Below are positions 11,268 through 58,995 of a stretch of DNA of 64,000 nt, one piece after another. Made by a program: the position numbers and the translations under genes. Location: NCBI GenBank assembly GCA_910890315.1, contig CAJVGD010000005.1:1860001-1924000 (forward strand), in the 5' to 3' direction. The notes beneath the pieces were generated by a model, which did not search any database, was not told the origin of the DNA, and saw only the letters and a list, made by a program, of their open reading frames with translations. Position 1 is the first letter of the stretch; each line of letters starts with the position of its first letter. Source of the DNA: Serendipita indica DSM 11827. Taxonomy: Eukaryota; Basidiomycota; Agaricomycetes; Sebacinales; Serendipitaceae.

Positions 11268-11700
11268 TCAAAACACATTCGTAACGCGACTGGCGTACCA
11301 CAGAGGGTTGACGCAGCCATTACAATGATAAGGCCTTATCTTGAGATGGGACTGGATGTGGTAGACCGATCGATCAAGGCGGTCATAGGGTTTCCGACAG
11401 GGACTTCCGTCCTCTTTATGCAACGTACACACGCGGGTATTGGATGACGTGTCAGTGAAGCATACCGCGACTTCGTCATAAGTCAAAGCGGTCTTGGTCC
11501 TTTGGAAATATGCTACGAGCTGGCGCAGGATATTTTGGAGCCCCTCGTTTCCAGGCGCAAGGACAGTCACGTCGATATCCACAGTGACAGTGTCCTCTTC
11601 ACCTGAAGACACTTCGTCGATATTGTCTGCAACAAGGGGATATCAGGATTACACTCTTCAGTCGATGGACGCGTGACTCACCAGTGTGTATGCGGCTCAT
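11268..11700 (-). CDS. Small zinc-finger protein A (novel family), C-terminus in an unresolved extra exon
   Basis: Exon 1 is 19 nt (11700-11682, MSRIHT) and exon 2 runs 11626 to at least 11272. The protein has an acidic start (SSGEEDTV), an LAPGNEGLQNILRQL helix, then the putative metal-binding block: C-T-L-H-K-x6-C-x5-DRLDR-x3-H-I-x2-H-x4-RP-Y-x-C-x2-C. The open frame ends soon after NPLW, but that tryptophan codon contains a GT donor (tg|gtacgcc) in the same place as in its relatives. A further exon beginning by completing a cysteine codon is therefore likely. Function is unknown. A DNA- or RNA-binding role is only suggested by the Cys/His spacing. Confidence 0.65.
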
Positions 11701-11756
11701 TTTCAAGGTTTGGACTTTGGGGATGTTCTGCGATGGTCGAGGAGCTCCATCATGGG

Positions 11757-11764
11757 CTTATATA
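11757..11764 (-). promoter_or_regulatory. TATA box of zinc-finger gene A
   Basis: TATATAAG on the minus strand, about 57 bp before the start codon. The same motif and flanking AAAGC are kept in the duplicated gene B. Confidence 0.6.
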
Positions 11765-12711
11765 GCTTTTAATCCAACCCCACGACGCTCATCATTCCCA
11801 ACAAACCAGCTCTCAAATATGTAAGCTGGCCCCGTGGCTCGTGCATGCGGCGTGTTCCCTGACACGTCCAAGAAGATGGATAACAACAGTGAATGCTTTG
11901 CCATACTCTTTAATGAGGCCCCGCAAGTTGGGAAGCATTCATCTGGCCTGGTCTCCCCTGGTTTCCAGACGCGAGGCCTCGCGACTGGCGCCTAGGACAC
12001 AACACCACGCCCTTTTCACAGTGTAAACCAGCCAGTATGTGCATGTGGCTAAAGAACCGTTCAATGGGATACGTCACCTCCTATGATTCCCGTATATGCC
12101 CCCATCGAATTGGCTGGGGCTGAAGCCAGCTCCTGCGATTGACAGAATTTACGCTCGACTTGAGGTAGAGTCGCGGGTATTTTTGCGCGCTTTTCAGCGC
12201 AGTTAGTGTTTCGAAGCCTTTGGAGCCTGGTCGGAAAGCGCTCGAGACGTGCTGGATGATCGAACATGAGGCAAGCAGGAAAACTATCCCCCCGGATCTG
12301 AGACTGAACAGAATCCGTGTTTTTTTTTTGCTTCTTATCTGCGAGTCTACCTCGCTTTACTGGTGATTCGGAGACTCTAGAAGCATCTGCAGGCGGTATA
12401 GCTAGGTCAACAGGGCTTTATTGGCTATGTTTCGAGTTTAAGGGTCAATTTTACGACAAGGACACGACGTGGTCAAGGTTCAAGCTCCAATTCAACCCGC
12501 TCTTTGCCAACAATCTCAATTACAGAGCTAGATCAAGAATCCGTTCGAGGTTGACAGCTGTTGGAGGCTCTGTGACGAGCAATGTTCTTCTTCGAACGTA
12601 ATTTTCCGCTATTTCTTAATCAGAACGGTGGCAAAGGCGGGTATTATAATGACACTTGCCAAACGTCGCATTCGATTTTCTGACCGTCATTCTTATGAGT
12701 TTCACGTTGAT

Positions 12712-13186
12712 TCAACGAGCTGAACTTGGCAGTACTGCAACAGCATCAAAATATATCACGCGTGCAATAACATTGGCGCACCACGGTGGGTTGGGGCAAC
12801 CCGTACACTCGTAGGGCTTGATTCCTAGATGGGATTGAATGTGATAGATGGATCGATCAAGCCGTCCGTATTTCTTCAGGCAGGGACCGCTCCCGTCTTT
12901 CTTATGCAACGCGCATTCGCGGGTGGTAGACGACATAGGATTGAAGCATACTTCAACCTCCTCGAAAACCAAAGGAGTTTGACTTCTTTGGAATTTTACT
13001 ACGAGGCGATGAAGGATATCTTGGAGGAACGGATTTCCGGGTGCAAGAGCGGCCAGATTAATCCCCACAGTACCAGTATCCTCTTCATCCGAAGATGCTT
13101 CATCAACGTCGTCTACAAGGAGGCAATATCAGCGTCCAAAACTCACTAAATGGGCGATGTGACTTACAAGGGTACTTGGAGCTCAT
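12712..13186 (-). CDS. Small zinc-finger protein B, tandem paralogue of A
   Basis: Exon 1 is 19 nt (13186-13168, MSSKYP) and exon 2 begins at 13112, giving the same structure as gene A. The start is acidic (DVDEASSDEEDTG), followed by LAALAPGNPFLQDILHRL and the module C-A-L-H-K-K-x5-C-x5-GRLDR-x3-H-I-x2-H-x3-KP-Y-x-C-x2-C. As in A, the codon after NPP is tg|gtgcgcc, a donor that would end exon 2 inside a cysteine codon. The remaining open frame to 12712 may therefore be intron. One residue is inserted between the first two cysteines relative to A. Function unknown. Confidence 0.65.
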
Positions 13187-13234
13187 TTACAGATTTTGAT
13201 CTGTCGGACAGCATCATAGGGGAGAGGAGAGTGG

Positions 13235-13241
13235 TTATATA
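13235..13241 (-). promoter_or_regulatory. TATA box of zinc-finger gene B
   Basis: TATATAA on the minus strand about 50 bp before the start codon, in sequence that aligns with the promoter of gene A. Confidence 0.6.
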
Positions 13242-14169
13242 GCTTTCTCTCCAACTCCACAGCGCTTGTCATCCTCAGCAAACCAGCTTTCAGATACGAG
13301 AGATGGGCCTGTGAGTCGTGCAGGCAGCAGGTTCCCTGCCATGTCCCAGAAGGCGAGGGACACGCATGAATACTCTGGCATGCTATTGAATACGGTTTTT
13401 TCAAGTTGGAGAATTCATTTCCCCTGGTTTGGTTCTAATTTCCAGCGTGGGTGCACTTATCTGGCGCTTAGGAGACGGGATCACGATTCTTTTACATGGG
13501 AAACCAGCCACAGACGTGAGTGTGGCAAAGAACCGTTTAAAGGGATATCAATCCCCTCGACGCCGCACGTGAACAGGAAGACTGGCATTGAAGTCAGCTG
13601 CCTTGATGCTTTTCCGGGGTTTAAATTTCTGCTGAGACAGGGTCGCCGGCGTTTGGCATATCTTTCATTGGCCCGAAAAGCCCCTCAATGGCCTGGTTGG
13701 AAAGCGCTCGAGGCTGGGTGATCGACTGAGAGAAACAATATCGCCGGATCTAATTTGCGACAGATTTGGCTCTCTTTTACTCTGAATCCAACTTCCCTAT
13801 TGAGCGTCATCGTCAGGCCGCAACCGCAACGTTTTCTCAAGCTTCAACAAAATATAAAAGATTATTAATTGAGAACAGCGCGGAGCGAGTTTACAGAGAA
13901 AAGAAATCGCGATTGGCTGGCCTCACTTTACGGCCTTTTTTGCAGCACACCCTTTCCCCTTGCGATGGCGAGCCATATTCTTCCTCATAATGCTTTTCCC
14001 ACTTTTGAATTTAGTATGCGCCTGGTTATTGGCAGGAGTAGGACGTACCATCCGCAAGGGGTTTTTTCCTCCCCTTTTTCGTGAGTATCACGACCCGCTT
14101 TGGAACTGAAGACCCTTTTCCTCTCACGGCTAGGATGCCTCAGTAAAGTTAGACGTCATCTCTCGGGAC

Positions 14170-14641
14170 TCACCATTTGTCGTGCACTCTACATTCCCAA
14201 GGCTGAATCCCAAGATGCGTCTGAATATGGTGCTGGGAACGATCCCGCCTGTCGAAGGTTGCATTGCACCAATTTCCGTTGTGCTGGAGTGTACACGTAA
14301 AGCGAGGATCTTCCTTGCTGATTGCAAAGAAAGACTTGACTTGCTTCCAAGTCAACTTCCTGCCCTTGTAATCGTGTTGAGTCAAAATCATGCTGAGATC
14401 TTCCCGTTGAGTGGGGTTACTGGGAGCCAAAAGATTTATGAACATCTCGATCTGTTCGTTCTGCGCCTGCATTGGCTCGTCGTACGCGCTGTCACTTGGT
14501 GCAGGAGAGAATGGGCTCCCCATGGACGAGCTGAAGTCTTGAACTAAATTCAGGTGAATAAATGTTAGCATATAGTGAGACCCTGCATGTTCGAGGCCGA
14601 TAGAACTGACTCGAAACACCAGAGGAAAATGTTGAGCTCAT
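14170..14641 (-). CDS. Small zinc-finger protein C (same family)
   Basis: Exon 1 is 31 nt (14641-14611, MSSTFSSGVS) and exon 2 starts at 14543. The second exon carries a Ser/Pro-rich start (PFSPAPSDSAYDEP), INLLAPSNPTQREDLSMIL and the module F-T-C-T-L-x5-W-C-x4-DRRDR-x2-H-H-I-x2-H-x3-QPW-x-C. It is more diverged from A and B than they are from each other. Translation in one exon stops right after DKW, yet that position is again tg|gtgagt, a strong donor. Continuation into an unseen exon is likely. A TATA-like box lies about 75 bp upstream. Confidence 0.6.
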
Positions 14642-14711
14642 CACAGTGTTGAAATTGGAGAGTAAGGCGACTAGAATGATACTCTTGTGCTCCCGCGTCC
14701 ACAATGGCTCT

Positions 14712-14719
14712 CTTTATAC
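14712..14719 (-). promoter_or_regulatory. TATA-like box of zinc-finger gene C
   Basis: GTATAAAG on the minus strand, about 72 bp upstream of the start codon of gene C. Confidence 0.45.
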
Positions 14720-15780
14720 CGCCACCTCATACCTGTGCGGTCATTCGCTGCTGCTTGAAGGATATACACGCATAAGCCTTGCGCTGGAGCTTCTAAGCTG
14801 GTTCGAAAGTAGGAGCCTGCACGGAGTTGCCTTCGGTGGCAAAGCGGTGGACTCCAAGGACTGACCCTGAGCTTGTTTGCAACACGTTGGACTACCTCTA
14901 GGGCAGAAGTCAGTTTTGAGGAGCTGATCGAATATTAATTAGCAGTCCTTCCGGGCATTTGCGAACCTGGTAGGAAATTTCGTGGGGTTCCCACTGTCAC
15001 GTGTGGCTCTGCTTCACACTTACCATATCCTATGGAAAGTTGTCAAAGGGTAAAAGGTTGTACTTTTAGGAACCAAGTCAAAAACACCCCGCTGTGTATG
15101 CCTCAAGGCGCCTCGAATCGGGAAGATACTCCCATTGCGCTGGAATTGCGAGGCCTAGCTCCGACTGCGATGCACTTTGGCCTTGTCGGTGCCGCGTGCA
15201 TCTTTAGAGCTGCGAGATTGTGTTATTCTCAATTAAATATGACTTTGTAATGGTGCCTATGGGCGCAGTCATGCCCGGCTCGAGAGAACTCGTGTTTGAG
15301 GCATCCTGGTTCCTTGCCTCGAGCACTCGGTCACCATTCATTCTCCTGGTTCAGAAGTTGGGGCCTCAGAGCCTCGAATCAAGCTCCTGGTTTAATTCAG
15401 TTTCAATCGCCGCCGAACTATGAAAGACAGCCAACTCAGAAACCCCTAAGCCAATTAGATTTGAACCAGCCCAGGATCCGGTCCGAGCAGCCTTGAGTGT
15501 AATTTCCGTGGATTTTGCTTATCGCATCCATGTTGTAATCGCCAGCCGGCGGATAAGGGGAATTCGGGCTGGCTCTTAGGATGAGCGCCTGTAAAAGATC
15601 CAATAGGCAGTCACGATTCTACGTCCTGAGTGTTCTCGCCATCAGCCGAAGCCTCCGTGCCTACCCATAACCACAACACCCTGTACACGTTGCAGCCCAT
15701 TCTCTGTTTTGCGCTCAGGAGACGGTGCCCAAACATGTTTCCCCAACCAAATGTTTGATCTAGAGCGTTAATGATACAAG
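14720..15780. other. Intergenic stretch, nothing recognised
   Basis: About 1.1 kb without a credible gene. Short open frames on the plus strand lack family motifs. Confidence 0.45.
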
Positions 15781-18700: not shown

Positions 18701-19208
18701 CTTTTCGAGAACTGTATTCTCCTTTACTAGTAGCGACATCTTGGCCACGAGTTGATTGTTTGCGGCCGTTATTTTTGCCACTTTCTCGCGCGCATCAGAG
18801 TAAAGTTGGGCGTTTCGGTCGGCTGTTTCGCGTATAGAATCCTGCGCGCGTAGATGTGCTTCATGTCGATGCAGTAATGCCTGTCCAACCTCTGGTATAC
18901 GGGGGGATATCAGCGATGGCGCTCGTAGTAAAGGGTGGCCGACCTGCGCTGAGAACGAGTTCTCTTTCTAGCTTTGCAACCGCGTCTTTCCACGCATGCA
19001 GTGATTCACAATCTGGGTTTTCGCAGCAGCACGTCAGCTCGAGCGGCGTCGCCGCACGACTGGAGAAGTTGCGTAGAGCTGCGAGTGCATTTGTGAGATC
19101 GTCATCGTATTGCAGGCTGTGCTCGCTGCTACTGAGAATATGCTTGAGTGGGGATTCTGGAGTGAGCGGACGGGACGACGTCGGTGTCCTCAGCGAAGTC
19201 CGCTCCAT
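15781..19208 (-). CDS. Large coiled-coil protein, function unknown
   Basis: Three or four exons fit on the minus strand. The first begins MERTSLRTPTSS (19208). The second starts near 18893 and the third after a 53-nt intron near 18412. A fourth split near 17790 would remove a stretch reading VHNSSHPF. Joined, the protein is about 1,080 residues. Residues 1-90 include CCCENPDCESLH, a cysteine cluster. Residues 90-310 form a nearly continuous coiled coil rich in Leu/Glu/Arg. After that comes low-complexity Ser/Pro/Arg sequence, a second helical block (about 410-530, containing SILLDKVSALLNRM), the motif LGGWIAPLSKFWAG, and a long disordered tail with SPPRKSSPRGSPR. This looks like a cytoskeletal or polarity scaffold, but I do not recognise the family. 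Confidence 0.75.
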
Positions 19209-19770
19209 GGTAAGAGGTCAAGCGGCAATTCACAAACAACCAGGCCAAGAATGTTTCAGACCAAAAAACGAAAAGAATACGAATTGAAACGCATTAAACA
19301 ATAGTTATGATCCTAGTCTTGATACAAGGGTATCATTTGCTTATCTCAAAGAGGGTACATAACACAACAAAGGGTACATCGGTTTACATTGTGCTTCCCG
19401 TTGCTGGTGCCGAATAAGATATTTGCCCTGACTCAAGATCAGCTAAACGTCAGAGTATGCGCAGTCGACTTACCAAATGTCGCAGTCCTTTGTGCTTTGA
19501 GCAATGTGATTTGTGACAATCTCGTGTATAGAAAGAGAGCCGGTTAGAGTGGCGTCAGTCCGACCTGCCTGTCGCCGCAACCCTGTTTTCCGTCGCAGCG
19601 GGAAGGTCTATGAGAGATATGGGTACGAAAGTGGTCTATGGTTCGGTCGTGGCGGAAAAAAAAAGGTCAGGTGGTCTTCAACCGTCACAACCATGCCAAG
19701 GTGAAGAGCAACAACATGACTTGTATAGTAGAGCACAAGAAAGACACAAATCTAAACACATTAACCAAAT
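19209..19770. other. Intergenic stretch, nothing recognised
   Basis: Upstream of the coiled-coil gene and downstream of the RasGAP gene. No supported gene or RNA seen. Confidence 0.45.
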
Positions 19771-22700
19771 CTACTCTACGATCCGAGTTACAAGTTCGAC
19801 CATGCAGTGGAGAAGCTGCGCGCTGGCTTGCCTCGGTAAGAAGTTGTGGGGTGCAAGAATACCACGCATCTGCATTTCTTCGAGAAGAGTGAGCTGCACA
19901 CGACTGGCTTGGTTCTGAGGTTGAGCTTGCTCCGCCGTTCCAATGGTCGATGCAGAGCCATTGAGTCGAGGACCTTGTGCGTTCCGTGGAAGAACATCGA
20001 GCATTGATGTGCGGAAAATGACACCGACAGCGGAGAGAATCCCCGGGTTGGTGACATTGGAAAAGGAGTGAATGATACGCTCCTGGATGCTCTCATAACT
20101 AAAGCCAGGTTAGATGGATCAAGAGTGATTTGCGATATGCTCACATTTGCTCAATCACTTCAGGATATACGGTCGACATGTCGGCCAGCAGACATAGGAG
20201 CGTTTCACGCTCGTCGATCGAGGTCGCACTATTCAGCATGGTCCCAAGGACAGTGGCCACGAGAAGTGCCGTGTTGTCCTCGTTGATGCCCAAGGATTGA
20301 AGGGGTACTCTTGCCTTGCTTGCTTCGTCGGAATCAGCGTCTCGGAACGCCACGTGGAGCCAGGTCGAGCCTACTCCAGCATCCTTGAGCAGGCCTTGCA
20401 GAGCAGACGCTCGACACACTGTCGGCAGTAGTGCGAGGAAATAACCCAACGCATCTGGTGGAATCGATTTTTCTTCTGGAGATGTATTGGAAGTGGTTGG
20501 GGCTGAACGGGCAGCAAACTTCAGCAGCAACCTGAGAACAGATGCACTTGATGTCTGAACCCGCTTCTGAGGATGACGCAGGCCTCTAAAGATGATCGCG
20601 GCGAGGGAAAACGAGAAATTCGTCTCAAAAGACAAACCCACGTAATCGTCAATCTGCAGTGCAACCTCTTCGAGCGGAGAGCGAGCTTCGAAGAAGAAGC
20701 TTGCGAGCGTCATATTGTCCAGCAAGCCCTGCTTATCCAGAGTCTCGAGCGATACTCTCAAGAGGTCCGCTGCTTCGGCGAACAGTGCGACCTCTCCATA
20801 CTCCATCAAGGCTATCGCCAACCATACAATTTGAGAAAGATATCGACCATTGTGAGGGGTTCCTGGTATGACCTTGGTGATGCATCGGAGGATTCCGGCA
20901 GAGGTAGAGGTGTCGCCGTCCGAGGAGCCAGCAAGGGCATTCTTGAAGGCCACAAGGATTTGATACAGTAAGTCGTCGTCTACATCCGACGTGGCCAAAA
21001 CGCCCATGACGACGAAGGCTCGCGACTGAATATAGCTGCAGTGAAAGGCGGTAGAAATGATGAGACTCATCCATCGCGCACGCCAAACATTGATCAGGTT
21101 CGACCCAACTGTTTCAAAGGGTCAGGCTCCACACTTCAATGGCACAGACACTCACGTGAAGATTGAGCCCCCAAGGAGATCATCTTGAGCATGAACCTCG
21201 ATAAGTCCTCCAAGGTGTCAATAGGAAGGGTATCGGAAGTTGAATCTGGGAGACTATAGTCTCCTATCGGACCGTTGGCGACAAGGCCGAACATGGAAAG
21301 AATCTCTGGCTTGTGTGCGTCCTCAAGTAGTTGCTTCAACTTCGGTGCTACAGCAGGATCATCTGCTTTGCTGACGTACAACGATTGTGCGAGGTTGACT
21401 GCCATGCCGAATATTGTGGTTCGCATCAGGACTGGCCCCGAACCAGCCAAAAGTGTAATGAGATGTGCCGTTTCAGCCACGAAAAGCTGATTATGTGCCG
21501 GAACTCTCGTATTATATCCAGCATACAGCGCAAGCCGAGAGATGGCAGCGACCTCGTTCCATGCGACGCTGGCCGTGAGTGCCTGAGAGGGTCGAAGAAT
21601 AGTCTTTCCGATAGCCTGACAGAGGTTAGAAAGGCTAATAAAGGCAGAAACCCCGTACTTTGCGAAGCTTGGAAAGTATTTTGCCACGAACACTGATAGA
21701 AGATATCACAACCATAGTCTCTGCCGCCAATTCGCATCGCCTGGAGCCAATTCCGCCATCAGAGGCAGCCCTGACGAGCTCATCTAGGGCGATAGAGATG
21801 ACCCCGGGTTCAAGCTTGGCCACTTCTGTCCATACTATACGCTGAGCAACGGGAGATAGCTTGAAAAGGTCAGTAATCTGTCGTCGGGGAAGAACGCCAT
21901 GTAGCTTACCTCGTGGTCTTTGACGACTAGTTCAATCAGGATCCTGAATGAGTCCCTGAGCTTGGTGGCAGGCTGGATTGTCGACACATTGGCTGGGTCA
22001 GGTGTAGTTGAAAGATTCTTTATCCATGGTTGCAGATATTGCAAGCATATGGCTCGGTGAGATCGCGAGGACTTGAAATAGCCCCGAGCAAACTCCGCGA
22101 TGAAATCCAGTGTCAGGTTGGGAGAATGAACCGAAAGTTTGTCGCTAATGTGCAACGCGACCGACAAGGGGCTCGAGGGCATAAACGCTCCTGCATAAGT
22201 GTCACTGATGCGTATATATCGACATATTAGAGCGTACCATTGACAGGGAGGGTGGCAGAGTCGTCAAAGTTGAGCGACGCAGCTACCGCTGTAGCCAAGT
22301 CGTAGGCAGTATTGCGCAACGACTCTTCATCGGAGCCCAGATTGAGCAGCGAGATGTTGAGGAGCGTGGCGGATACCTCGCCGGATGAGTAGGTCCGTTC
22401 ATATGAGTGAAGATTCTCGACCCTTGATTTGCCTTTGGCCATGCGAATTGTCTATCGGAAGCAGTGAGTTCTCGCGTCTCCGTGATCCAATTAACTTACA
22501 TGGACGATAACGTCACGCTCCAATGACGAGAAGTAGAGTGTACCTCCATAACGGCTTCGTCGAACAATGAACTCGTTTGGTTCGTGGCCTGTAGAGATGT
22601 TATAAACATCTCCAATATCAGAGAAGAGGATAATCTCGTTGACATGGCACTCTAGTCCGGGCCAGATGGGTTGAGAGCGAAACTAGACTTTGATTTGAGA

Positions 22701-25700
22701 ATGCGGTCAGGAAAGAACAGTGTACATACCGATACAATACGAAGATAGGTTTCGTATATGATCAGTGATATGGGTAGTCGAATGCTATGTCGACTCTGTT
22801 GTGCAACTTCTTCGAAGATGATAGACTTTTCCATGTCTAGGTCTGCAGCGCGAAGTGATCCTTGAAGCTGTAGATCAGGGAGATGTTGCTGAAGATCGGC
22901 GATGGAAGAAACGGCGAAGCACGACTTGGAGAGTGCTATTCCGCCACTCATGTGGTACAACTTTCGAAGGAACTTCATTGCGGCGTTATTTGCATTCAAG
23001 ATGAACGCCCGCGAGAAATTTTGCACAAAGTCGTATGGACACCGCTCCAGGAAAATCCGTAGCCATAGCAAGGGAATCTCCGAAGTTGAGGTGAATCCAG
23101 TACAGTCGAATATCACATCGTAAGGTTGATTATTCGACGCCAACGTCTTCAGATTTCGTGTTAGGCTGTTTCTTCTGTTTCCAACTCGAGCATACCTTGA
23201 AGATGTGCATAGTGAGAATATCCAGTTCAACGGTTTCCACGTTGATTCTGTGAAGTAATAAGGCGTAAACGGGACTATGTCCCTACAAAATGTCAGAATA
23301 GATAAAGTTTATACCAGGGACGTACCTGAGGCGTTGGCAAGGCGTAAAATAGATCACGCACGAGGTCCTTGGAGCGATGCTCATGGGTACGCATAAACTC
23401 TTGATAGAGCTGGTGTTGAGAGATCATGTCTTTGGATGGAGGAGGTATGGTGACCGGTTGACCCATTTCCACAAGCGTCGAGCATAAGTTGTCCCACGTC
23501 TGTTTTCCTGTTTGACTTGCTTCATCGTCCATCGACATTCTTGAGAATCCCAACAGTTCTTTGCCAACTTTGTCCGCAAATCGATGGAAAAAGCGGTGCA
23601 GGACGATAGCATCAGCTTCGTCGTAGGAGGAGCCATGCCATTCCTCTGCTTCCTCTTGATCATACTCGGGCAACGTCTGTAGGGTGATCAGCGAAAGAAA
23701 TATCGGTAGCCAAGGAAGCATACCACGACATCGGAGAGGAATTGAGTCACACGAAGAATATTTTCCTCTAGAAAGTCGTTGAGAATCATCATGAATTGCT
23801 CTCGTCCAAAGAGGACATTGTTCGCCAAGTTTTGGATGATCTTTGTGATGAGAAGCAATCCTCGACGGACGGGTGGCGGCGCAGATAGGTCGATAGTCTC
23901 TGGCGTAACAATAGAAGGGTTGATGAACCTTCATTCGGAGACTATGAGAAACAATACGGTTTGTCATATCTAAACGCACCGAAGGAACAAGAACCCGCCC
24001 ACAACTGCATATTTACTTTCCGGCCATTGTATAGAGCTGTTCAAAGTGAGATAGATGGCTACATATTCGACAGTGCGTACACTTTCTCCGCAATATGAGC
24101 GCAAATCTCGCGAACGAGCCTGCAAAGCGTAAGTTAATGGGCATGAAAGGAAACGGGGACGAACGGTGGCAGCAAAGCAACAGAATCTGTAATACGATCA
24201 AGGAACATTTGTGCCATGCGCTTGAGGTTGTTCAGATTGGCCGTCTTCTCTTCGTCGCTCAGGGTAGTCGAGTCAAAGTCCATGGTCGGATTCTGAGCCA
24301 TTTCTGCAAGGAGAGGTGCAATAATCATGCGAAGATAGCTGTATCCGTGTACCTTGGCGACACTGACAAGGAGTCGGGTGCACATTGTGTTTGCTCTAAA
24401 CAGCTCCGTAGGTCGTTCTAACAATGAATCAGTAACATATGTAGTAAGGGTAACGCTGCTTACCTGAGCGAGTCATCTCCTTGTCGATCAGTCCTCGAAG
24501 TAAAGAAACCAGGGTCGAGCGCGTATCAAAGATATTGATCATCACAGGCAGCATAATGTCGACTTCGTTCACCGGGCAGGTCTCGCACACAGCCAACGCC
24601 AGCAGCAGATCGCCACGAACCATCTGCAAAGTTTACTTAGTATGCACCGTGGGAGGCAAGACATTATTACCTCGCAAAGGCGCCTATTTCCAGGTCGAGG
24701 GACCATCGGTTCGACTCCATCAAATCGGGCTCCCTGCTTGAGAACACGGGTGAAGATGAGAATAAAAGTGGCTCGCATCCTTGGGTCGTCGTGATAGCCA
24801 AACGAGAGGCAATGTTTGATACCAGCGTCCATGTTTGCTGAGAGCATATTGGATATCCCGAGGATCGCAAGCTCCCGAACGCTCCCTTGCTCTTTGCTTC
24901 CCGGACCTACCGGCTTGCTGGCTGCCGAGCCACGGTCACTCAGTGCATCCTGGTAGAGCACTCAGCAAGGAGCCCGCGCAGAAGAGATACATACCTCTAC
25001 GGGAACCGTCCTTTCTAACGCAAGCACGAAAAAGTTGAGATACTTGCTGAACAGGCTCGAGATAGCCTGGCCAGACTCGAGTCCTCCAGAGCCATCCAAC
25101 GGTTGCAATCGAAGCCTGTCAAGCATGGTGGCCGCTGCCTGAATACAACTAAAGTCAAGGTCGGCTTGTAGCTTCAACATAGCGTCTCGCTCGTGCATTG
25201 GCCAGTCCATCTAGGCCTTGTAAGTGAACAGACAAGATGAGAACAAGGGACTGACGGATATAACGTTGACCCATTGGTGGATACTATCCAATAGCTGGTT
25301 TCGCATGGCGACGCTCTTCTTCAAGGCGAGGATATCTGACTTTGAAAACAATGAATTGCACAAATTGCAGAACTTGATTTTGATCCGGATCGTATTTAGA
25401 CTACTCGACCACGAGTTGAGGAATGCCGAGAGTTGAAGGACGATGTGTGTGACATCGACATTGAGCTGCGCTCCATCTGCGATAGTCTCGATCCTGTCGA
25501 ATATGAGCCTGAGAACGGATATTGCCTTTCATAGTGTGAGTATCGTTAGGCTGCTCAGTATGTCGCTGCACCCACCTGCTCAATCAGTATTGGCGTATTA
25601 GCCGGATTCCAGTCTGGTAACCGTCGGTCGAGTAGCCTTGACACGACGCTTTCAAGCGATCAGACATTGACTGTGGTAGGAAAGGCTGGGAATGCTCACC

Positions 25701-29205: not shown

Positions 29206-29244
29206 AAATCTATTCCGATATAGAGTACAGCAACGAAATCCTCC

Positions 29245-33930: not shown

Positions 33931-35623
33931 ATGAATCCTCAAGACGAATACGACGCGTACTACGCCACAGGTAGATTATAAACCCTCTATGATAACTTCT
34001 ACTCATGCTTTGCGCCCAGCTAGTCGCCCGAGTACCGGTCACGCATCCTCGACGCAATCCTTTCCGCCATCTCCGGCGATGACGATGAGGGACGAACACC
34101 TTTATCATGCAAACTTTCATCACACTCAGAGAAACGTCTCTGCTCCTGGGTATATGGCCCCACAGACGACCTCGTTTAGTTCGCTCGCCGTTGGTCCCGC
34201 GCCGAGCGCTTCTACCCAGGCATTTCGTGAGTGCCGTGCTACCGCCCAGCAACGCCGATACCCTAACTCTCTGTCGGCAATTTTTCCACTCTCAGCACCC
34301 CAAATGAATCTTCATCAGCCGTATTCGCACACGCCGTCACTCGCTTCTCCTTCGACGTCCTCAACCTATTCTTCCGGCCGTTACGATGCTTCATATAACA
34401 TGTCACCCCAGAGTCCCACCGGCTTGTATCATTATCATACACGTCATGATGTTGACTCTTCGCTGCCTCCGACTGTCTGGCCGATTCCCATCTCGGGTCA
34501 CTTGAACTCTGGGCAGGGAGTGCAGACGAATGCGTCGCAAGATGCCTCGAAAAACGATCCTGGTGCGTTGCAATCCCGGCACCTCCTCTCTTCGTCCCAT
34601 CCAGCGAGCCGCTCATCCTCCTCCAATCCACCCCCACGACCGCCTCGCGGTGCAGTGAATCCACAGTATGTCGTTCGCAATCGCAGTGGGGACTCGAGCA
34701 CACCTTCACCATCGGCCTCGCTTGGTGGATCGTACGCCTGGATCGACCACCGTCCAGCGGGTCCCAGTATGCCTGTTCAGGTAGCTGGGACGACGGCGGG
34801 CGGACGCTCTTCATTCACACACAACGCGGATATGTACGAAGATCCGTCGATGCAGTCCATTCAACGAGCACCCCAACAGCAGATTATAGAGTCGCAGTCG
34901 AGACAGGTCCAGCTTGCACCCCTATGCGGTCCAGAAGATATGCTCGAACATTTCCCGCTGTCGACAGAGATTCACCAACGGTTCCGTGTAGAGTTACTCA
35001 AGGTTATCAATGCCGTGTGGCGAAGAGCGAACCAAAAGGAGCCAGACCCGTCGTTGCTGCTGCAGTTTACGTCCAAAATCGAGGAAAACGGGTTTGAGAA
35101 GTATAGGTGCTTGTTCTGGTCGGAAGGATCAGAGTGTGGCAAGAATATTCCCCGGTATGTGAATGTCTGGTTGGTGGACGGGATGCTATTGGCTAAACTG
35201 TAACGCGTGTTTTGACAGGTCGGATCGCATGCTCGAGCACCTGAGGTTGGCATTCGGAATACATGATCGTGACCCAAATGCTGATCGGTTTTGCAGACGA
35301 CATGTTGGGGTGCGACCGTGGTTGTGCGACTGCAACTCGGATGGATGGTGCGAAGACTCTTAAGCGATACGCGTGTTACTGATGCATAGTTGGTATGTAG
35401 TCCAGGCGTATTTCCCTCAAAGTCGGCCATGTACCAACACCAGAAGAACGTGGAGCCGGTTCAGTGTCAGCGATGGTGAGCCGAATACCTAGCCATTGTG
35501 CAAACCACAACATGAGCTCGACTGACTGTGTGCAGTGGAGCACAGGTTCTCCGACAGAATCTCGCACGGCATTGGCGGGCGCAGCGATGCCAACGACCAG
35601 AGGACGGGGTGACTGAGACATGA
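33931..35623 (+). CDS. Multi-finger zinc-finger protein D (novel family)
   Basis: Starts MNPQDEYDAYYA. Introns: 33971-34019, one near 34228-34298, one near 35155-35219, a 51-nt intron near 35246-35296, then two near 35347-35400 and 35466-35540. The first 310 residues are Ser/Pro/Thr-rich and disordered. Then come a helix (LLKVINAVWRRANQKEPD) and the zinc-binding region: YRCLFW-x4-EC-x5, R-SDR-x3-H-L-x2-H-x3-RPW-L-C-x-C. After introns each falling inside a TG|T cysteine codon follow VFPSKSAMYQHQKN, QCQRC and a C2H2-like GAQVLRQNLARHW with a final RC. The reading through the last two introns was chosen because it lines up residue for residue with gene E. The protein may bind nucleic acid; this is an inference. 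Confidence 0.7.
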
Positions 35624-36132: not shown

Positions 36133-37371
36133 ATGGCTTACCATTCCGAGTACCAGCACCCGTACGCAAACTACTCGTCCTCTGCTTATCTTGACCACCA
36201 ACACCGTCCGTACTTTGTTTTTATTTCTCTTTTCCCTGCGTCCTGACTCTCCTGACCAGCCTCGACGTCGCCCGCGTCCTCGCATCCAACGCCCGTATCC
36301 CCTCCGCTCCAGACTCACGAGCGGATACCAGTTCCTCAGTCTCCCTCATCGTTTATTTACAACAGAAACAATGCTCCGTACCCGTCGTCCTCAGCCGTCT
36401 ACCGTGAGTCTCCCCCGAGCTGTGGCGAGCGCCCGTCACCTACCTGACGGACGTCTACAGCAAACGAAAATCCTGCATATCACCACCACCATCATCCATA
36501 CCACCCGCATCACCATGCCGAGGGCCAGACGTCGGTCCTCTACCGTCAAAGCTCGATGGACTCGCATCGACACGCTTATCCCTCCCCGCCAGCTCCTGTA
36601 CACGAATATCACCACGAACAGCCTCAACAGCGTTCAAACTCGAGTGTGCACCAGGTCCAGGGCTATTCGCCTCAACCGCAACATCTGCCGTCCCCCGTGA
36701 GCTCGCATCAGCAACAACAGCAGCCGACACACATCAACCCGCACCCATCAAGCTACTCACAGCGAGGACAGGAGATGTATGTGGCCTCGGACAGCCCAGC
36801 CACCCTCTCTGAAGCAGACGACCGACTGATGCGCTACCACTTTCCTCTTGATACCCAAGTACACCTCCGACGCGCCCTTTTTCACGTCCTGAATGCAGGC
36901 TGGAAACGCGCCAACGAGCGCGAGCCGACGGATGACATCTTGCTCCAATTTACAACCAGAAACGGCAAGCTCTACCAGTGTGCGTTTTGGAAAGCAGATA
37001 CACGCTGCGTCAAGGAATTTGATCGCAAGGACCGTGTGCTCGACCATATACGCACGCACATTGACCTCCAGCCATTCGTCTGCCGCGAAGCGGGCTGGTA
37101 AGCGCCATCTCTGCGTGCTTTATAACCCATCTCATGCTTTATGGATCCATAGTTGTCAACGGTTCTGCTCCAAACCGGATTTATTGCAGCATGAGAAGAA
37201 CAAGGAGAAAACTCAATGCGACCAATGGTCAGTGACGCGCACCCCCCAAAACGATGATCCTGACACTCATCACTGTTTCATCAGTGGTGCGAAAATCTTG
37301 CCAAAGAATCTCGCGCGTCACAAGGCGACCGCGTTATGCCGTTCTGGACGGTGTTGGCCTGCAAACCCATG
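36133..37371 (+). CDS. Multi-finger zinc-finger protein E, tandem paralogue of D
   Basis: Starts MAYHSEYQHPYANYSSS. Introns fit at about 36207-36259, 36402-36459, 37100-37152 and 37227-37285. The N-terminal 220 residues are His/Gln/Pro/Ser-rich (HHHHHPYHPHHH and QQQQQ runs). The conserved half has a helix (LRRALFHVLNAGWKRANEREP), then YQCAFW-x4-RC-x5-DRKDRVLDHIRTH, LQPFVC, and across an intron GCCQRFCSKPDLLQHEKN. After a further intron come CDQCGAKILPKNLARHK and ALC. Both last introns interrupt a cysteine codon after TG, exactly as in D. It lies 510 bp downstream of D in the same orientation. It resembles a transcription factor with an activation-type low-complexity N-terminus, but targets are unknown. 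Confidence 0.75.
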
Positions 37372-39254
37372 AAACACCATCGTCTGTGAGGATAGAATGG
37401 CGTTTTCGATCCGCGTAACGCTCCTCGGAGGAGTAGCCAGATGTCTGGATGGTCTTGTACTCGATATGGCCTCTCGGTCCCTAATCAGCTGTTTTTCGTC
37501 TTCCTGTCTATCGCCCTCGCGCCACCGAAGATGGATCCTAGACGTGGACACTGTGTATAGTCACCTCTATTAGCTTGGTATTCAACGCGCCCCACATACA
37601 CGTAGGAGCAACAGGATTTGTAGAAACACCGGTCTGGAACGCGTCCCAACCTTCCGTCACGCTAACTGAGCCCGCGGTTCACTTGAGATCAGTCGATCCT
37701 TGACCTGCGGCAGACGCGACGCGCGTGGCGTTTTACGAGATGAGTTGTTCGTCCTCCTTTAGCCTGTCCCAGCCAGGCGTGGGATTTCTCCTCCCTCTCC
37801 GCTTGTCATCTCGTTCCCAGTCGACTGGGACGCGCCCCGCCGTGTCTCGAACAGTAATCTCGATATGCTGTAATATAGTCGCTTAATCCATTTGAGTCGT
37901 CGACACACCGGCATTAGACGCGCATCCGGATCAAGTCGCCGTATCTCATTCACAGTTTCCGCCCCACCCACGCAACCAGCTTGTCCTTGCTCGCTGTACA
38001 ACGAGAGCGAGATTCTCGTAAAGAGAGGTAATGTGTCGATCACTCCTGCCTGTTCCCTCAACATGAAACGCGACTCGCGATATTGGGCGGCGGAACGAGC
38101 GCATTTGCATATTCGGTTTTGCCCTCCCCCCTTTGTTCTCGCCTCCGCCCAGACGAGGGGAGATAGCGTCAAACCGTCTCGTCCGGAAGTGGGCATGCGG
38201 GCGCGCGAGAGGCACGACGCGTCTATCGCCATCTTGATGTCGCCCTCGTTTTGTTAGCCTAACCGAATCATGCATGCGCATGGAATGGTGGCAAGCTCTC
38301 CACCCACGACGAGCTGCCAGCTCTTGTCACCCAACATATCGTCACCCGTCCATTGTCGACGGAGGTCGTTGCACCCGCAATGACGAAAAAGGGAAAAAGC
38401 GGCAGTGTTATAGAACAGTTGTAAGAAAGGTTGGCAAAAAGGGTCCGGCGGAGGAGGACGAGCGAAGTAGAGTCGGTTCCTCGCCGTCCTTGTTCGAAGT
38501 CATTATTTTACGTTCCAGACGTCGTCCAGTTCGACAGACGCGATCGGCATCGTCTACCTCCGGACCGCGCACTAGGGCCGCTCGACGGCTCGAACTGTGT
38601 CTCGACAAGACCTCCCCCGGTCTTTGTAACGGCGGACGAGGGAAGCAGGGTTGGCAAGTGGCGAATTCGAGCAGCGTAGTGAGCACGTTGGATGCTCGTG
38701 GCACGTAAAATTCTGAACAAGATAACGGCCCAAATGGAGCCCCCTCCGTCCCTGATGTTTCCCCTAGCGAGCACCGAGGGAGCCGTTTGGGGGTCTTTCG
38801 CGACCCGTCCAATTAGATGAATCAAGTTACCATCAGTATGCGTCGATTGAGAAAACTGGGAGCACTTACGTACTCGCGATTTCTGTTCTATCTTTGCGAG
38901 AATGCCCTCTAGCCCTGAAATTGCAGGCAACCACGAGTTCCAGCAGTGGATTCTGTCAGAAGGTGTATGCGTTTCAACGTCATTAACATCGCACAGGGCC
39001 ATGAAACCCCCAAAGGAAACCAAAGAATCGCGACAAAAGTGACATTTTCAGGAGATTAAAGCAGCTAAATCGTGTATCAGTGTATTGAATGTTATGAATT
39101 CGCGGCAGGTAGATCATGGCCAACGAAGTAGAGAGCCAAGTTGTACAATAAACTTGGTCCCCTCGCCCACAGGTGCGGGTGCTCAAAGATTCATGAAAGA
39201 CGTAATGCTCACCAATGATTCGATAGCTATAATTTAATCAGCACTTTAATCTCG
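37372..39254. other. Long unassigned stretch
   Basis: About 1.9 kb with overlapping open frames on both strands but no recognisable protein. The best candidate lies at 38379-38670 on the plus strand (starting MTKKGKSGSVIEQL, later VVQFDRRDRHRL), yet a stop interrupts it and no clean splice rescues it. The segment is GC-rich and Arg-biased in every frame, a typical source of spurious frames. Confidence 0.4.
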
Positions 39255-46440: not shown

Positions 46441-47783
46441 CTAATCGCCACGACGGCGACGAGGAGGTGACCTAGACCGAGAATGCGATATGGACCTTCT
46501 GGATCTCGAGCGAGACGATGCCATGGAGCGATCCATGGACCTGCTTCTACTCCTCTGGCGCCCTCGCGTAATGGACCTACTCCTGCTCCTTGGGTGTCCC
46601 CGCGTACCGGCGCCCCTCCCACGTCCTCGACCACCATAGTCCCGTGTTCTGTCATCACGCGGAGGTGGAACATCTCTATCCCTATCTGCTCGTCCAGGTG
46701 GTCCACCACCACCCCGTCCACGCCATCCGCCACCTGTCGACGAAAACGCTCCTCCAGGTCTTGACGGCTCAGCCGCAGACGTGCCAGTGACCCATGGTAT
46801 TTGTCTCGGCGGACCTGCATCTCCGCGAGATCCTATCCCTCCTCCAGCAGATCCACGAATGTTCAACCCACTCGCACCAAACCCACTGTTGGCTCCACCT
46901 CCTCCAGCCGACGGCGGGGGACCAGATTCACCCTTGGGAAAGACGACGGTGACGGAAATGTAGTCTCCTGGACGGAACCGCAGCTCTGCCAGTGTGCGCG
47001 TCTCTCTAGATGTACTGGTATTCCCAGTCCCACCATCGCCAGAACGGTTTGTCTCCTGCTCGGGAGGCGGGGAAGAGTCTTTTGGTGGCCGCTCCGTCGG
47101 CATTTCGGTCGTGTCCATTGCGTCCTCTCCATCCTTTGCCTTTTTCTCCTCTCTCGGCCCATTCATATCCCGTCGATTTGTATCAGAAGAGTTTGGCTCC
47201 CAACCATCGTCCAAGCTGGCTGCATCGGATAAATCTTTTGCGTACACAACACCGAGCTCTTTGGACTGAAACGTGCCACCGTTTGCGCGATCCCTATTGC
47301 CCGCTGGCGAAGGGTCCGGATAGATGCTCCGAAAGACGTACTTTGCTGTCGAACTGTATACTTCATTGCGGGATGTTGAAGTGTCGAGCGTCGTGCCTGT
47401 TGAGCTGAGCGTTGGCGGCGCTCTTGAGCACGTAGCGTTATTAGGAGCTCTGAGAGCGTTGCATCCATCCTTTTGGAGGAAAAATGATTAGTTGAGAGTA
47501 ACAGACAGAGGCTGCAGACTTGCCATGTGTAGATTTGGTATTCGCTTTCGGTTGGCAAGCTCGCTCCAGAGAAATGTGACGTTCGTAGTCCAGGAGATGC
47601 ACGAACAAACGTTCTTATTAGGAATGGTGTGACCTGTCGTTCAAGCGCGACGAGCAACGAATTGTTTGGGCGATGAAAGGCAGAACAAGTCAGGAAGAAG
47701 TCATTATTAGTATCCGTCTGAAGTCTGAATACTCCATGTCAGCTTACTTTTGCACGGTCTATCCGATTGGAAGACGAGGCCAT
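46441..47783 (-). CDS. SAP18-like protein with C-terminal RS/RGG tail
   Basis: The N-terminal half matches SAP18, the ubiquitin-fold subunit shared by Sin3 histone-deacetylase and ASAP splicing complexes. Exon 1 (47783-47748) encodes MASSSNRIDRAK. After an intron ending near 47654 come VTPFLIRTFVR and SEYQIYTW, then DATLSELLITLR, and, after a long acidic loop (EEKKAKDGEDAMDTTEM), TLAELRFRPGDYISVTV, the closing strand. The C-terminal 150 residues are Gly-rich with RGG pieces (GRGGGGPPGRADR, GGRGRGRG) and end in an RS domain ([18 protein letters not shown]). Animal and yeast SAP18 lack this tail, so it looks like a fusion of SAP18 with an SR-type domain. Exact borders of internal introns are approximate. 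Confidence 0.85.
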
Positions 47784-49511: not shown

Positions 49512-49657
49512 CTCATATGATACGAGTCGGCGGGTTGACTGTAAACCCTTGGTAATGGTCAGCTCAGAGCAAGCGCCACCATCAAAGTGCGACCACTAGA
49601 TCATTTCACTGGAAATATTGCTACAAATCTATATCTGATTGGTTCTACGGATGACGT

Positions 49658-50877: not shown

Positions 50878-51220
50878 GTGGGTGTAATCTCTGTTTGGTG
50901 TACTTGTGATTGCTGGCTGTGGTTGGGGTCCAAGGTCGGTCAGACTCAGTGTGAGCGTAGGATATCCAATAGTCGCTAGAACCTGTTGTCGTTAGCAACT
51001 CCCGGCGTGAATTTGAACGGAAGAATTCGCATGAAATTGGCCACGTAGTCTTGTTGACATTTCTCCGGTGACGCTATAAAACCCACGGGACCAAATCCAA
51101 ACCTCTGAGCTGGCACCCGCCTACGACAATCGTTGATCTGTTTCTCGTCTCCCTTTCGTCTCTTTCCTCTCAAATCGTCCATCTTTATCTCCTCGACTTG
51201 TTTCTCCACCAGGCAGTGCA
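50878..51220. promoter_or_regulatory. Divergent promoter region (MYND copy 2 / GRP94)
   Basis: 343 bp between head-to-head genes. A run of pyrimidines (TTTCTCGTCTCCCTTTCGTCTC) near 51138-51170 precedes the GRP94 start, typical of strongly expressed fungal genes. A possible ER-stress element cannot be asserted. Confidence 0.4.
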
Positions 51221-54153: not shown

Positions 54154-54299
54154 GCATGGGTACCATTCTCAAAAAGAAACTCGTATCTTGGATGTATCTA
54201 CAGATAGTAAAGGGTATTTTATTGATATTGACTATCAGCCCACCTCTTGAGACTTTCGTAGAACTTTTGCAGTGAGTGGAGTCCTCAAAAGAGTGGCCA

Positions 54300-56639
54300 A
54301 TGTTGCTTGTTTCCCGCCATGTCCGTCGTCAATCTCACCTGCACTCCCTGTTAACCTGGAGTCGTCTTTCTCGATCGAATTTCTCCAATTCAGCAGCCCA
54401 TAATGAACAAGTCGACGAGTTTGACCCTTTGAATGACGCTGCAACACCGCGCCGGAAGAGTGCGCACAAAAAGTCCAAGGAAAAGCCACAATCTGTGCGA
54501 GATCAATGGCCTGGATGGAATATCATCGTTGGAATCGAGGTACATGCGCAACTCAAAACGAGAAACAAGCTATTCTCCCGTACGTACATGATACACGTCT
54601 CATGTATTGTCTCCTGAGCTCTGAACCCGGATGAATAGACACAATCGTTGCGGAAAATCCCGACATAATGCCAAACGAACGCGTTTCGTTGTTCGACGCT
54701 GCATTCCCTGGGACATTGCCGGTACGTGAACGTTGCCTTTCTTGGGAATGGTTCATTCTTATTTTTGCGTAGAGAATCAACCCTATGTGTATTTCTCTGG
54801 CTGCTCGGACGGCTTTGGCACTCCAGGCAGACATTCAGCCTCGGTCCGCTTTTGATAGGAAGCATTACTTTTATGGGGATCTACCTGCCGGCTATCAGAT
54901 TACACAGAATTATGGTACTCTCCGAATATCATCATTGCCCGTATAGGAACCCTGACTAGGATCCCCCACCCAGCTCCCTTTGCGCGGAACGGGCACGTCG
55001 AGTTGCTCAAGACTGGGAAGCAAGTCCGAATTAAGCAGATCCAAATCGAGCAAGACACAGCCAAATCATTGAGTAGCGGATCAGGGACGACATACGACTT
55101 GAATCGGGTGGGCATGCCGCTGTTGGAAATCGTGTCCCAGCCGGACATTACATCCGCCGAAGAGGCGGGAGAATACGTCCGAAGTTTGCAGGCCATCTTG
55201 CGAAGTGTTGGTGTTAGCGATGGGATGATGGAAGCGGTGAGTAAGGTTTCGTCTTCTCGACCCTGACTCTGCTGTCGTCCTCGTTTCGCGGCGTAACTCA
55301 GGCTCACATTCGGAGAATGAGCCCATTGGAAGGAGATATCGTTTCTGATCCTCTTCATTTTGTCCCCATCCCCAGGGCTCGTTTCGGTGTGATGTGAATG
55401 TGTCGATTCACCGAGATGGCGAACCAATGGGGACCAGAACGGAAGTCAAAAACCTCAACAGTATTAAGAGTGTCATCCTCGCAACTAGTACGTACAGGGA
55501 AAGTGTTTCCTTTTATGAGTGGCTCACCTCTAGGCAGATGCGGAAGTTGTTCGCCAGATGGCCATTTTAAACGCGGTGCCCTCTTCCTCTTCGAATTCGC
55601 CCAGGATCGCCCAGGAGACCCTGACGTTTGACGAAGACACAATGCTGACAAGGCCATTACGGAGCAAAGAGGGTGTCGAAGATTATAGGTTGGCCTCTTG
55701 CCTTCTTTGTTTATATTTTGCGGGTCAATGACGGAGATTCTTGCAGATACATGCCAGACCCCAATCTTCCGAATGTTCTGTTTCGCAAGGACGATGTATC
55801 GTCCATTCAAGATGAACTCATCGCGCTTGGTATGACTGGCCATGGACCAGATGGGCACGTCCATTATGGCTGGTATGGAACCAAAAGGCGATTACAGTCA
55901 CTCTTGGATGTTTCCGCACCGTCCTCGAGCGTGAGCGATGTGAAGCATAGCAACGCCATGGAGCATATGCTGAGGGACTTGGAAGTCTTGATGCTCCTCG
56001 ATGCCGGCAAAACCGTTGGTTGGGATGGCGAAGTCGAGAATGGGGCCGTCGCATTCTTTGAACGTGCCATCAAAGGCGACCAGCATTCGACGCATCGACG
56101 AGATCCCAAAGTTGTCCTTAATTGGTGAGAAAAAAGCTGCTCAGTAAACCGTACTAACATGGCATAGGATGATTCACGAGTTACTTGGTCAATTAACCTA
56201 TCGCCAACTAACGTTTGCGCAAAATCCACTCAGTGCAGAGCAACTGGGGGATATCGTTGATGCCGTCGAAGCAAGTCAGATCACCAACACTGCTGGCAAG
56301 ACACTACTCCGACATATTCTCGACGCTGCTACACCGCTAGCGTCAGATTCCTCGACAGACTCCACCCATACACCACCTAGTCTTTCTATTCAATCTCTTA
56401 TTGATCAACTTGGCCTCGCAAAATCGCGTTCGGACACAGACTTGGAGGAATGGTGCCAACGTGCGATTGACGAGTTGCCGGACAAAGCCGAGAGGGTGAG
56501 AGAAGGCAAATTGAACGTAATCAATGCCCTCGTCGGCAGGGTTATGAAAATCAGCAAGGGTGCGGCAGATGCAGTGTCGGCAAGGGCTGTTTTGGCGACA
56601 AAGCTCGGCATACAGCTCCAAGATGGGAAGAGTGAATAA
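54300..56639 (+). CDS. Mitochondrial aspartyl/glutamyl-tRNA amidotransferase subunit B (GatB/Pet112)
   Basis: Part of GatCAB/GatFAB, which converts Glu-tRNA(Gln) to Gln-tRNA(Gln) in mitochondria. The start [18 protein letters not shown] is basic and Arg-rich, a likely presequence. The catalytic cradle blocks are [99 protein letters not shown] and [15 protein letters not shown]. The C-terminal helical tail domain ends [14 protein letters not shown]. Introns near 54581, 54723, 54914, 55236 and 55487 were placed to keep these blocks in frame. It starts only 146 bp after the GRP94 stop, same strand. Confidence 0.92.
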
Positions 56640-57906
56640 TTTCGTAATTCATCGGCGTGTCTTACTGATTGCACACGGTCGGTTGGTAAGAGCAGCGAAC
56701 CGAGTAGCGGGATGGGTGGGAGGCTGACTGGTTGACAGATTCCAATGATCGGAAATTGGTGTCCCAAGAAACATTGTTGTCGTAGTGTTAACACGGGACC
56801 GTATGGCAGTGCACGAGGTCGGACGTCGGTATATCATCGCGGCAGTCGCTATAGTTATTTTTCATGCCGGTTTTAATCCTTTAACTTGGATTTGTTCCCA
56901 AATTATAAGCTTTTATATGTGGAGAATTGTCGTATCGACTGCGCTTGGCTGGCATGGTTAGCTCGCGCTGAGCAATGTCGGATCTGTTATAACTACGATG
57001 TATTTGCCCGAAATGATCTCTGAAGGTGGTGATTCGACGAGAGGATTTGTATAAACAGTGATCCTTAGTTTCCCGACAGCAAGCAGAGACCTTATGTGAA
57101 TAATAATTGCCAAATGTGCCTGCACCGCCAGACATATGAGCTCTTGTATGATTTCAATGACTCCACTTTACAAATCATTCTCATTGGATAATAGCGGAAG
57201 TGGTCATATCAGAAAGAATATTTGATCGGGGTTGGACGGAATTTGAGCGTAAACCACTCGGAAACCCTGGCTTCTCAGGTGAGCCAATGGTCGTGCCCTG
57301 AGAACCCATGAGCCGCAAATCTCCGGTGTTTCATTTACCAGCCAAGTGGCTGTCAGATTTACGGGCACCGCCAGTCCAACCCAACCGTTCATGTCCACTA
57401 TCTTGGCCATCAGTGAGAACAACGTGCAACCGTGCGCAACCATTTATGAAATGCTATGAAGACATATCATGTTAATTAATTATTACTTTGATGGACCCGC
57501 CTGCTGCTACCTATGGGTGTGTTTACATGCGTACGTCTATAGGGCGTAGATAGAATTGGTGAGATAAGTTAGGAATGGAATAAGTTTTACTCGAAGTGGA
57601 TGTATAAACTGTACAAGCTCCCGGGAGCAACTTGCTGACCAGAACTGTTGCATGAATTGAGGCAAGAGGACGAGAGAGGCCGATTTTGAGTGAGAGAGGA
57701 ACAAATCATGGTGTTGATTTTGCGGTGCAGTATCGCTTTCGGTGTCTGCTGATATTCTTCTTGCGAAGCTCTTTACCGCTGATTTTTTCATTATGAGTTC
57801 AAATCACACGTAAGAAAATGAGCGGACATACCACGTCTCACAAATGATCATTGCGTGCTGCGTATGGCTTTGAAGCGACTCTTGAGAGAAATAGGATCGA
57901 TCACTG
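56640..57906. other. Intergenic stretch, nothing recognised
   Basis: About 1.27 kb, AT-rich, with only short open frames. No RNA gene, repeat or mobile element seen. Confidence 0.5.
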
Positions 57907-58995
57907 TCATAGTCCATCGTCAGGACCGGTCATCAAACACAAACTTGTAAGAGCACCATATGGCGCTCCTAATTGACGGCGGAGTGGAAGCGGCGTATAC
58001 GGCCCGATGGGCATGCCCCGATGATCACCATCTCCAACAACGGGAGGGGACGAAGAAAAGTAAGACGTACCACCCCAGATTTCCACAGCTTCCTTCACAC
58101 CTATACGGCCGTGTATTGATGTGCACATTCACATGTGCCTGCCCACGATCGCGCCGTCTGAATTGCTTGAAACAGTGGGGACATTGCCATTGGCCGGACG
58201 GCAGCTTTACGAGCTCAAGTCCCTCATCTCCACTTGCACTGGGTTCGCGGGTAGACGGCAGCTGTTGCTGGTCCACTGGTTGCTCCTGGACCTGGACCAG
58301 GGGTTCGGCACCCGTTTGAGACACGAGTGGGGCAGGGGAAGAAATCATATCAAAGGGTTGTATGAGAGTATCGAGTGCTTGTTGGGGCGGTTGATAGGGC
58401 ACCAGAGGATGCATGCCCGGAGAGGTCATGTAGCCTATCGATGGGCTCCCGTGTGCATGGAGCGGGTCGTACAATGCACTCTGTGGACTTGTCGCTGCGG
58501 TCTCGACGTCGGGTACATACGGAGGCGAAAGACTACGCGTCCTGTCAAGGCCCAAATCGAAATATGACCCGGCATCATGCGAGTGCGAGTGGGAGTGTCC
58601 GTGGTCGTGTAAGGGAGACGTATGATGGTGTTCGCTCGCGTTACTCTCGACGATGGCTTGGTGGGCCTGGGCCGCGTACAAGCCATACGTAGACGTACTC
58701 GGCGCGGGTACGACTGTCGTAGTCGTCGACTGATAATTCTCTTCGAGGTGAATCTTTGTTGCAAACGGATACTTTCCGAGCGTATTCCAGTCATTTGTCC
58801 CTATTCCCCTCTCGTCAGCCAAAAGCGCTTCCGGAATATCGGTAAAGGGCATACGCCAGTAGGTGTTGCACTCATGCACGGGGGTAGGCTTTGAGCTCGT
58901 CGACGCAGCAGGCGATGGCCAGTCGTGGGTTTGCATAATGTAGGTCGTGTCGAGGGGATATTGCACAAACGGGGGGGAAGCACAAGCTGCGCTCA
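57907..58995 (-). CDS. Zinc-finger protein F, dispersed family member
   Basis: Likely start MSAACASPPFVQYPLD at 58995 (the open frame extends upstream to 59137). About 300 Pro/Ser/His-rich residues, including an HDHGHSHSHSHD stretch, precede a C-terminal finger: GQWQCPHCFKQFRRRDRGQAHVNVH, TRPYRCEGSCGNLG. This is closest to a classical C2H2 (C-x2-C-x12-H-x3-H). The codon after GNLG is tg|gtacgtc, the same donor position as in the other family genes. The next exon is unresolved: joining at 57965 gives a short tail LCLMTGPDDGL after a completed cysteine, while a different acceptor gives another tail. It may be a transcription factor. Confidence 0.62.

Follow-up and report, generated by a model that had tools for sequence, protein, structure and literature searches.

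The 64,000-nucleotide window analyzed here (Serendipita indica DSM 11827, contig CAJVGD010000005.1, positions 1,860,001 to 1,924,000; 50.9% G+C, zero N) contained six gene models, A to F, and one remnant copy of a zinc finger gene family. The six genes are a single family by descent: each carries two introns within its finger region, and all 12 of these occupy the same positions, in the same phase, of homologous codons, namely those for the second cysteine of finger 2 and of finger 3. These genes probably, though by no means certainly, encode nuclear regulators that use three diverged zinc fingers to bind DNA, in a family that carries two ancestral finger introns and has been duplicated locally. 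The gene models were hand-built from the coding strands of three loci (Table 1), and the analysis was based on the window together with public non-fungal libraries. The family had been noticed in a first-pass annotation of the sequence; that observation is borne out in essence, with more support than was claimed, but several of its details were wrong.

The shared module DR-x3-H-x3-H-x4-P(W/Y/F)-x-C is real. It was found unspliced in A, B, C, E, and F (five matches in the window versus 0 in 40 first-order Markov simulations of it) and interrupted by an intron in D. In 6/6 genes it was followed by the annotated TG/GT (the slash between bases marks the cut). A second intron of this kind had been ascribed to D and E only, whereas the hand-built models place one in every gene; nor is the donor GT throughout, as the second finger intron of B begins with GC (TG/GCAAGT). 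The sister gene A has a GT-AG intron at that place. The split codon had been given as cysteine or tryptophan, but after splicing it reads TGC or TGT, that is, cysteine, in 12/12 cases; the tryptophan reading was rejected because it arises in the unspliced frame only. Altogether, 21 introns were modelled in the six genes: the 12 in the fingers, seven nearer the N-termini, and two present only in D. All finger introns are in phase 2, each inside a cysteine codon (TG/Y), and they are 44–60 nt long, except the first of F (167 nt). The seven introns toward the N-termini are all in phase 1, and the two D-only introns are in phase 2, in arginine codons of finger 1; these nine non-finger introns were placed by eye. 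An introner-like origin was considered and rejected: at E ≤ 0.01, 0/21 introns recur elsewhere in the window.

The finger introns were evaluated by enumerating, for each gene, all products with 0, 1, or 2 introns downstream of P(W/Y/F)xC (GT or GCAAGT/GCGAGT donors, AG acceptors, introns of 40–180 nt) and scoring them leave-one-out, with a profile derived from the other genes only. The cysteine-splitting model ranked first in 6/6 genes, among 3805 (A), 1617 (B), 672 (C), 606 (D), 92 (E), and 809 (F) candidates, with scores of 84.4, 81.0, 52.9, 59.6, 59.1, and 45.9 bits, respectively. Replacing the downstream DNA by simulated sequence, in 72 runs (12 for each gene), yielded maxima between 8 and 21 bits per gene, the top one being 21.3. 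The models of A and B still ranked first when both genes were dropped from the profile; in gene C, a runner-up in which the first finger intron ends at a different acceptor scored just 0.3 bit lower. Common descent, first proposed from one intron position, is supported and strengthened by the two positions shared by 12/12 introns, and the ancestor very likely already carried both.

The fingers themselves depart from the usual pattern in several respects. In finger 1, the two cysteines, annotated as five to eight residues apart, are in fact spaced C-x9-C in A, C-x10-C in B, C-x8-C in C, D, and E, and canonically (C-x2-C) in F, followed in each case by x12-H-x3-H. A linker of seven residues (H-x7-C, the length of TGEKPYx), ending in P(W/Y/F)xC, leads to finger 2, with the spacing C-x4-8-C-x12-15-H (x12 after the second cysteine, x15 in C). 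Finger 2 is without the usual second histidine; F has H-x2-H. An extra cysteine or histidine lies between the two conserved cysteines of finger 2 in 5/6 genes, and E has an extra cysteine directly after the conserved one; such residues in or beside the knuckle would complete the zinc site. Finger 3 reads C-x2-C (C-x1-C in gene C), x11, H, x4-5, C. An alignment of the six sequences, in which the first cysteine of finger 1 is misaligned, contained 17 invariant columns, including most zinc ligands as well as R89, D91, R92, N149, and R152. With helix positions -1, 2, 3, and 6 assigned by the usual C2H2 register, R(-1), D(2), and R(3) are invariant in finger 1, as are N(3) and R(6) in finger 3, and the helix of finger 2 is variable. 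The invariant helix residues suggest that the outer fingers 1 and 3 probably read a conserved motif, with finger 2 varying between paralogs. Only gene D carries introns in finger 1; there are two (35155-35296, plus strand), and they enclose an exon of 27 nt. Read in another frame, the 3′ end of the first spells CFDR (CNACFDRSDR), aligned with the FDR of the related genes; this could be coincidence or a vestige of the intron's origin.

The annotation was aware of no named family with this layout. This fits the libraries searched: none of the six proteins has a Pfam match that reaches the family's cut-off. The proteins nevertheless fall among C2H2 fingers, as the six-gene profile matched C2H2 arrays in the PDB. 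PF00096 scored 21.3 bits in F, 15.5 in D, and 11.2 in E, compared with its gathering cut-off of 25.2, and A, B, and C had no match to it at E ≤ 10. The best E-value in NCBIfam, a prokaryote library, was 0.012. In the PDB, 185 distinct sequences were matched at E ≤ 1 (best E 2.8e-19), and the best 60 of the 185 included chains of ZNF568, Aart, WT1, and EGR1; the names among these 60 we take to be those of C2H2 finger proteins. To judge from these matches, the family belongs to the C2H2 superfamily, as a diverged branch. It resembles PF00096-type fingers in finger 1 (C-x12-H-x3-H) and in its TGEKP-length linker; it differs from them in the wide C-x8-10-C of five genes, in a finger 2 without second histidine, and in a finger 3 that is C2HC with x11.

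The motif C-X2,4-C-X12-H-X3-5-H is present in 1/6 proteins (F) and absent from A to E. As far as the available parts of the reports tell, fungal surveys select genes by PF00096 and then by this or a near-identical motif (PMC12295980, PMC8742544, PMC11433517). The survey of Basidiomycota comprises 1032 genes from 30 species in Groups I–VI; it probably deals with the same broad superfamily and, if the agaricomycete reading of the annotation is right, with the same phylum, and it also contains tandem duplicates, but proteins without C-X2,4-C-X12-H-X3,4,5-H were discarded, which would remove 5/6 of the genes described here, and a shared cysteine-splitting intron is not mentioned in the parts examined (PMC12295980). 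In Pleurotus ostreatus, a “false” C2H2 motif lacking the histidine on the C-terminal side was described for 17 proteins, that is, fingers short of one histidine beside canonical ones; by that description, however, each protein keeps CX2CX12HX3H (motif 1), which here holds for F alone (PMC8742544, in part). Thus, incomplete fingers are in themselves no novelty. From what the relevant part of the Zic report conveys, bilaterian Zic genes have an “A-intron” at one conserved site inside the finger domain that is likewise used as a mark of descent; there it is one intron in animals, whereas here there are two, at equivalent positions of successive fingers (PMC2222250). No publication describing the present family was recognized, by title or start of abstract, among the matches listed. 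Public proteomes of fungi probably already contain relatives annotated as “C2H2-type domain-containing protein.” Rather than a new type of system, this is a variant family of probable C2H2 regulators, marked by a pair of introns.

The minus strand carries genes A, B, and C in head-to-tail order. A and B are evidently an old tandem duplicate: 1075 bp align at 66.8% identity, codon positions 1, 2, and 3 are 78, 76, and 53% identical, and dN (0.26–0.29) and dS (1.2–1.4) give a dN/dS of about 0.2–0.25. Outside this pair, protein identity to gene A is 21–31%. In the region preceding the fingers, identity is 51% between D and E, 54% between A and B, and 20% between C and A; a comparison of this region by hhalign between A–C (three sequences) and D–E (two) was not significant (Probab 0.10, E 0.54), and tblastn of A to E without composition correction gave an overall E of 1.6e-6, with a match extending into the pre-finger region. 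A six-frame profile scan of the window (2620 stop-to-stop stretches of at least 12 aa; 92 profile positions) identified the degenerate copy G, which retains the finger 1 helix and linker (HDRTIDHFRTHISHRPSRC), followed by broken pieces of fingers 2 and 3. G contains stops and frame changes and lies directly downstream of another long reading frame. An intact gene model for it was rejected, the best of 259 candidate products (37.6 bits) being without a normal finger 2 or 3, and G was treated as a remnant. No further members were found in the window: after the pieces of A–F and G, the next six-frame match had an E of 0.15.

The gene most easily taken for an outsider is F, which might be an ordinary C2H2 gene resembling the others. 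It has a canonical finger 1, passes the survey motif as the only one of the six, has the lowest splice-test score, and in the six-sequence alignment showed no pre-finger module. We nevertheless regard this as unlikely because both introns of F are at the same codons as those of A to E, its linker to P(Y)xC and its finger 3 spacing (C-x2-C-x11-H) match theirs, and its KKNISRH motif is like KKNIARH in B.

Because both finger introns cut TG/Y, skipping the exon between them (cassette exon; Table 1) restores a cysteine codon, and in silico the skipped form was a two-finger protein with a single stop at its end in 6/6 genes. The cassette is frame-neutral, so that a finger would be lost with it, or gained through its duplication, with every zinc ligand left intact. 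That the middle exons, as exact one-finger cassettes cut through a zinc ligand, constitute a modular fungal finger-exchange system, operating by splicing or exon duplication and missed by PF00096-based surveys, is quite improbable in our estimation. Retention of the finger 2 intron, again in silico, truncated the protein before the finger 2 helix in 6/6 genes; retention of the finger 3 intron led to loss of the N-x2-R-H helix of finger 3 in 5/6, and in E the frame stayed open, adding 19 residues. Early truncation and the open two-finger frame would both suit introns serving as regulatory switches, with retention of the finger 2 intron producing one-finger, and cassette skipping two-finger, competitors of the full form. 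IKZF1/Ikaros, according to the part of the literature available, has isoforms that differ in finger combination through alternative splicing, and the cassette exon here would permit a like change in finger number; however, Ikaros is a vertebrate gene with other fingers, and splicing has been shown there, whereas the cassette here was read from gene models (PMC8330404). Despite this likeness, a switch is decidedly doubtful: the isoforms are predicted, many introns truncate a protein when retained, and transcripts bearing a premature stop may just undergo degradation. Exon skipping is, moreover, rare in fungi.

Independent intron gain in each gene, with the TG/Y of a cysteine codon as proto-splice site, could draw on the splice consensus (matched by exons whose last base ahead of GT is G), on one codon type having been struck in two different fingers, and on the two finger 1 introns of D absent from the other five genes (introns do come or go), but it is very unlikely. 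The six finger regions contain 49 cysteine codons, of which 12 are interrupted; these are the two homologous ones in every gene, and cysteines of finger 1 are split in 0/6, a pattern that argues for common descent. At ∼8 cysteines per gene, five repeats would have a chance of ∼1/28^5 if insertion is assumed at cysteine codons only.

If the genes are indeed a family of DNA-binding regulators, it would have expanded by local duplication. The N-termini of D, E, and F are long and, by eye, rich in Ser, Pro, Gln, and His; they may be activator- or repressor-like, and A, B, and C are short versions, potentially in competition with them for shared sites. The proteins would then probably be ordinary gene regulators of a type overlooked by strict searches. 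Several points weigh against this reading. Introns and gene models were predicted from sequence, and the splice-test profiles were trained on models made by eye, so that the test measures mutual consistency and not transcripts. Some C2H2-like fingers bind RNA or proteins. No Pfam match reached its cut-off, and the repetitive, Cys/His-rich make-up of finger arrays improves the E-values in the PDB. Coding DNA of A and B is 69% identical, little above the whole block and the introns (55–64%), and constraint is therefore visible only in the codon pattern; among four pairs computed, dN/dS was usable for A–B alone (D–E and B–C saturated, A–C with a dS of 2.4). The predicted structure of the E module plus finger 1 (AlphaFold; strand-strand-helix at 54–84) was poor, with a mean pLDDT of 52.4, and was rejected as evidence. 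Finally, large-exon queries taken from E (twice), B, and F (A, C, and D left out) found no relatives beyond the window in three viral contig scans (28, 7, and 5 pattern matches) and one genome contig scan (55 pattern matches), with none of the matches confirmed; these are non-fungal collections and say little.

Table 1. Positions of the family members, their introns and cassette exons, and neighbouring Pfam matches in the window.
Feature	Position	Strand	Product or size	Remarks
Gene A	11051-11700	-	165 aa	exons 11682-11700, 11299-11626, 11176-11250, 11051-11126; N-terminal exon by eye alone
Gene A finger introns	11251-11298, 11127-11175	-		hand model and splice test
Cassette exon A	11176-11250	-	75 nt	symmetric, phase 2-2
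Gene B	12533-13186	-	166 aa	exons 13168-13186, 12782-13112, 12660-12734, 12533-12608; N-terminal exon by eye alone
Gene B finger introns	12735-12781, 12609-12659 (GC donor)	-		hand model and splice test
Cassette exon B	12660-12734	-	75 nt	
Gene C	13923-14641	-	183 aa	exons 14620-14641, 14174-14543, 14049-14129, 13923-14001; N-terminal exon by eye alone
Gene C finger introns	14130-14173, 14002-14048	-		hand model and splice test
Cassette exon C	14049-14129	-	81 nt	
Gene D	33931-35623	+	448 aa	7 exons; introns upstream of 35348 by eye
Gene D extra introns in finger 1	35155-35218, 35246-35296	+		at Arg codons, by eye
Gene D finger introns	35348-35400, 35476-35535	+		hand model and splice test
Cassette exon D	35401-35475	+	75 nt	
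Gene E	36133-37372	+	338 aa	5 exons; N-terminal introns by eye, the first with weak donor GTCCGT
Gene E finger introns	37098-37152, 37228-37284	+		hand model and splice test
Cassette exon E	37153-37227	+	75 nt	
Gene F	57706-58996	-	356 aa	exons 58071-58996, 57832-57903, 57706-57778
Gene F finger introns	57904-58070 (167 nt), 57779-57831	-		hand model and splice test
Cassette exon F	57832-57903	-	72 nt	
Degenerate copy G	19310-19666	-		span by eye; profile match 19547-19666, E 1.8e-6
Erv26	8399-8869	-		Pfam match
Mago-bind	10257-10955	-		Pfam match
CRAL_TRIO_2	22655-23308	-		Pfam match
SAP18	46444-47487	-		Pfam match

Elsewhere in the window, a scan of 20 long reading frames identified Erv26, Mago-bind, CRAL_TRIO_2, and SAP18 as ordinary eukaryotic neighbours. 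At 1594-5191 (plus strand), a NACHT (NPHP3_N) reading frame is followed by one with 14 WD40 stretches, a pair that we presume to be one NLR-like gene of the fungal NACHT-WD40 kind.

For fungal gene catalogues, the finding means that surveys starting from PF00096 and applying a strict motif would lose 5/6 of these genes, and such catalogues may undercount regulators. The cassette exons offer a concrete test case for change in array length via symmetric exons, and the double ligand-splitting intron gives a fast-evolving finger family a marker of descent that is easy to search for.

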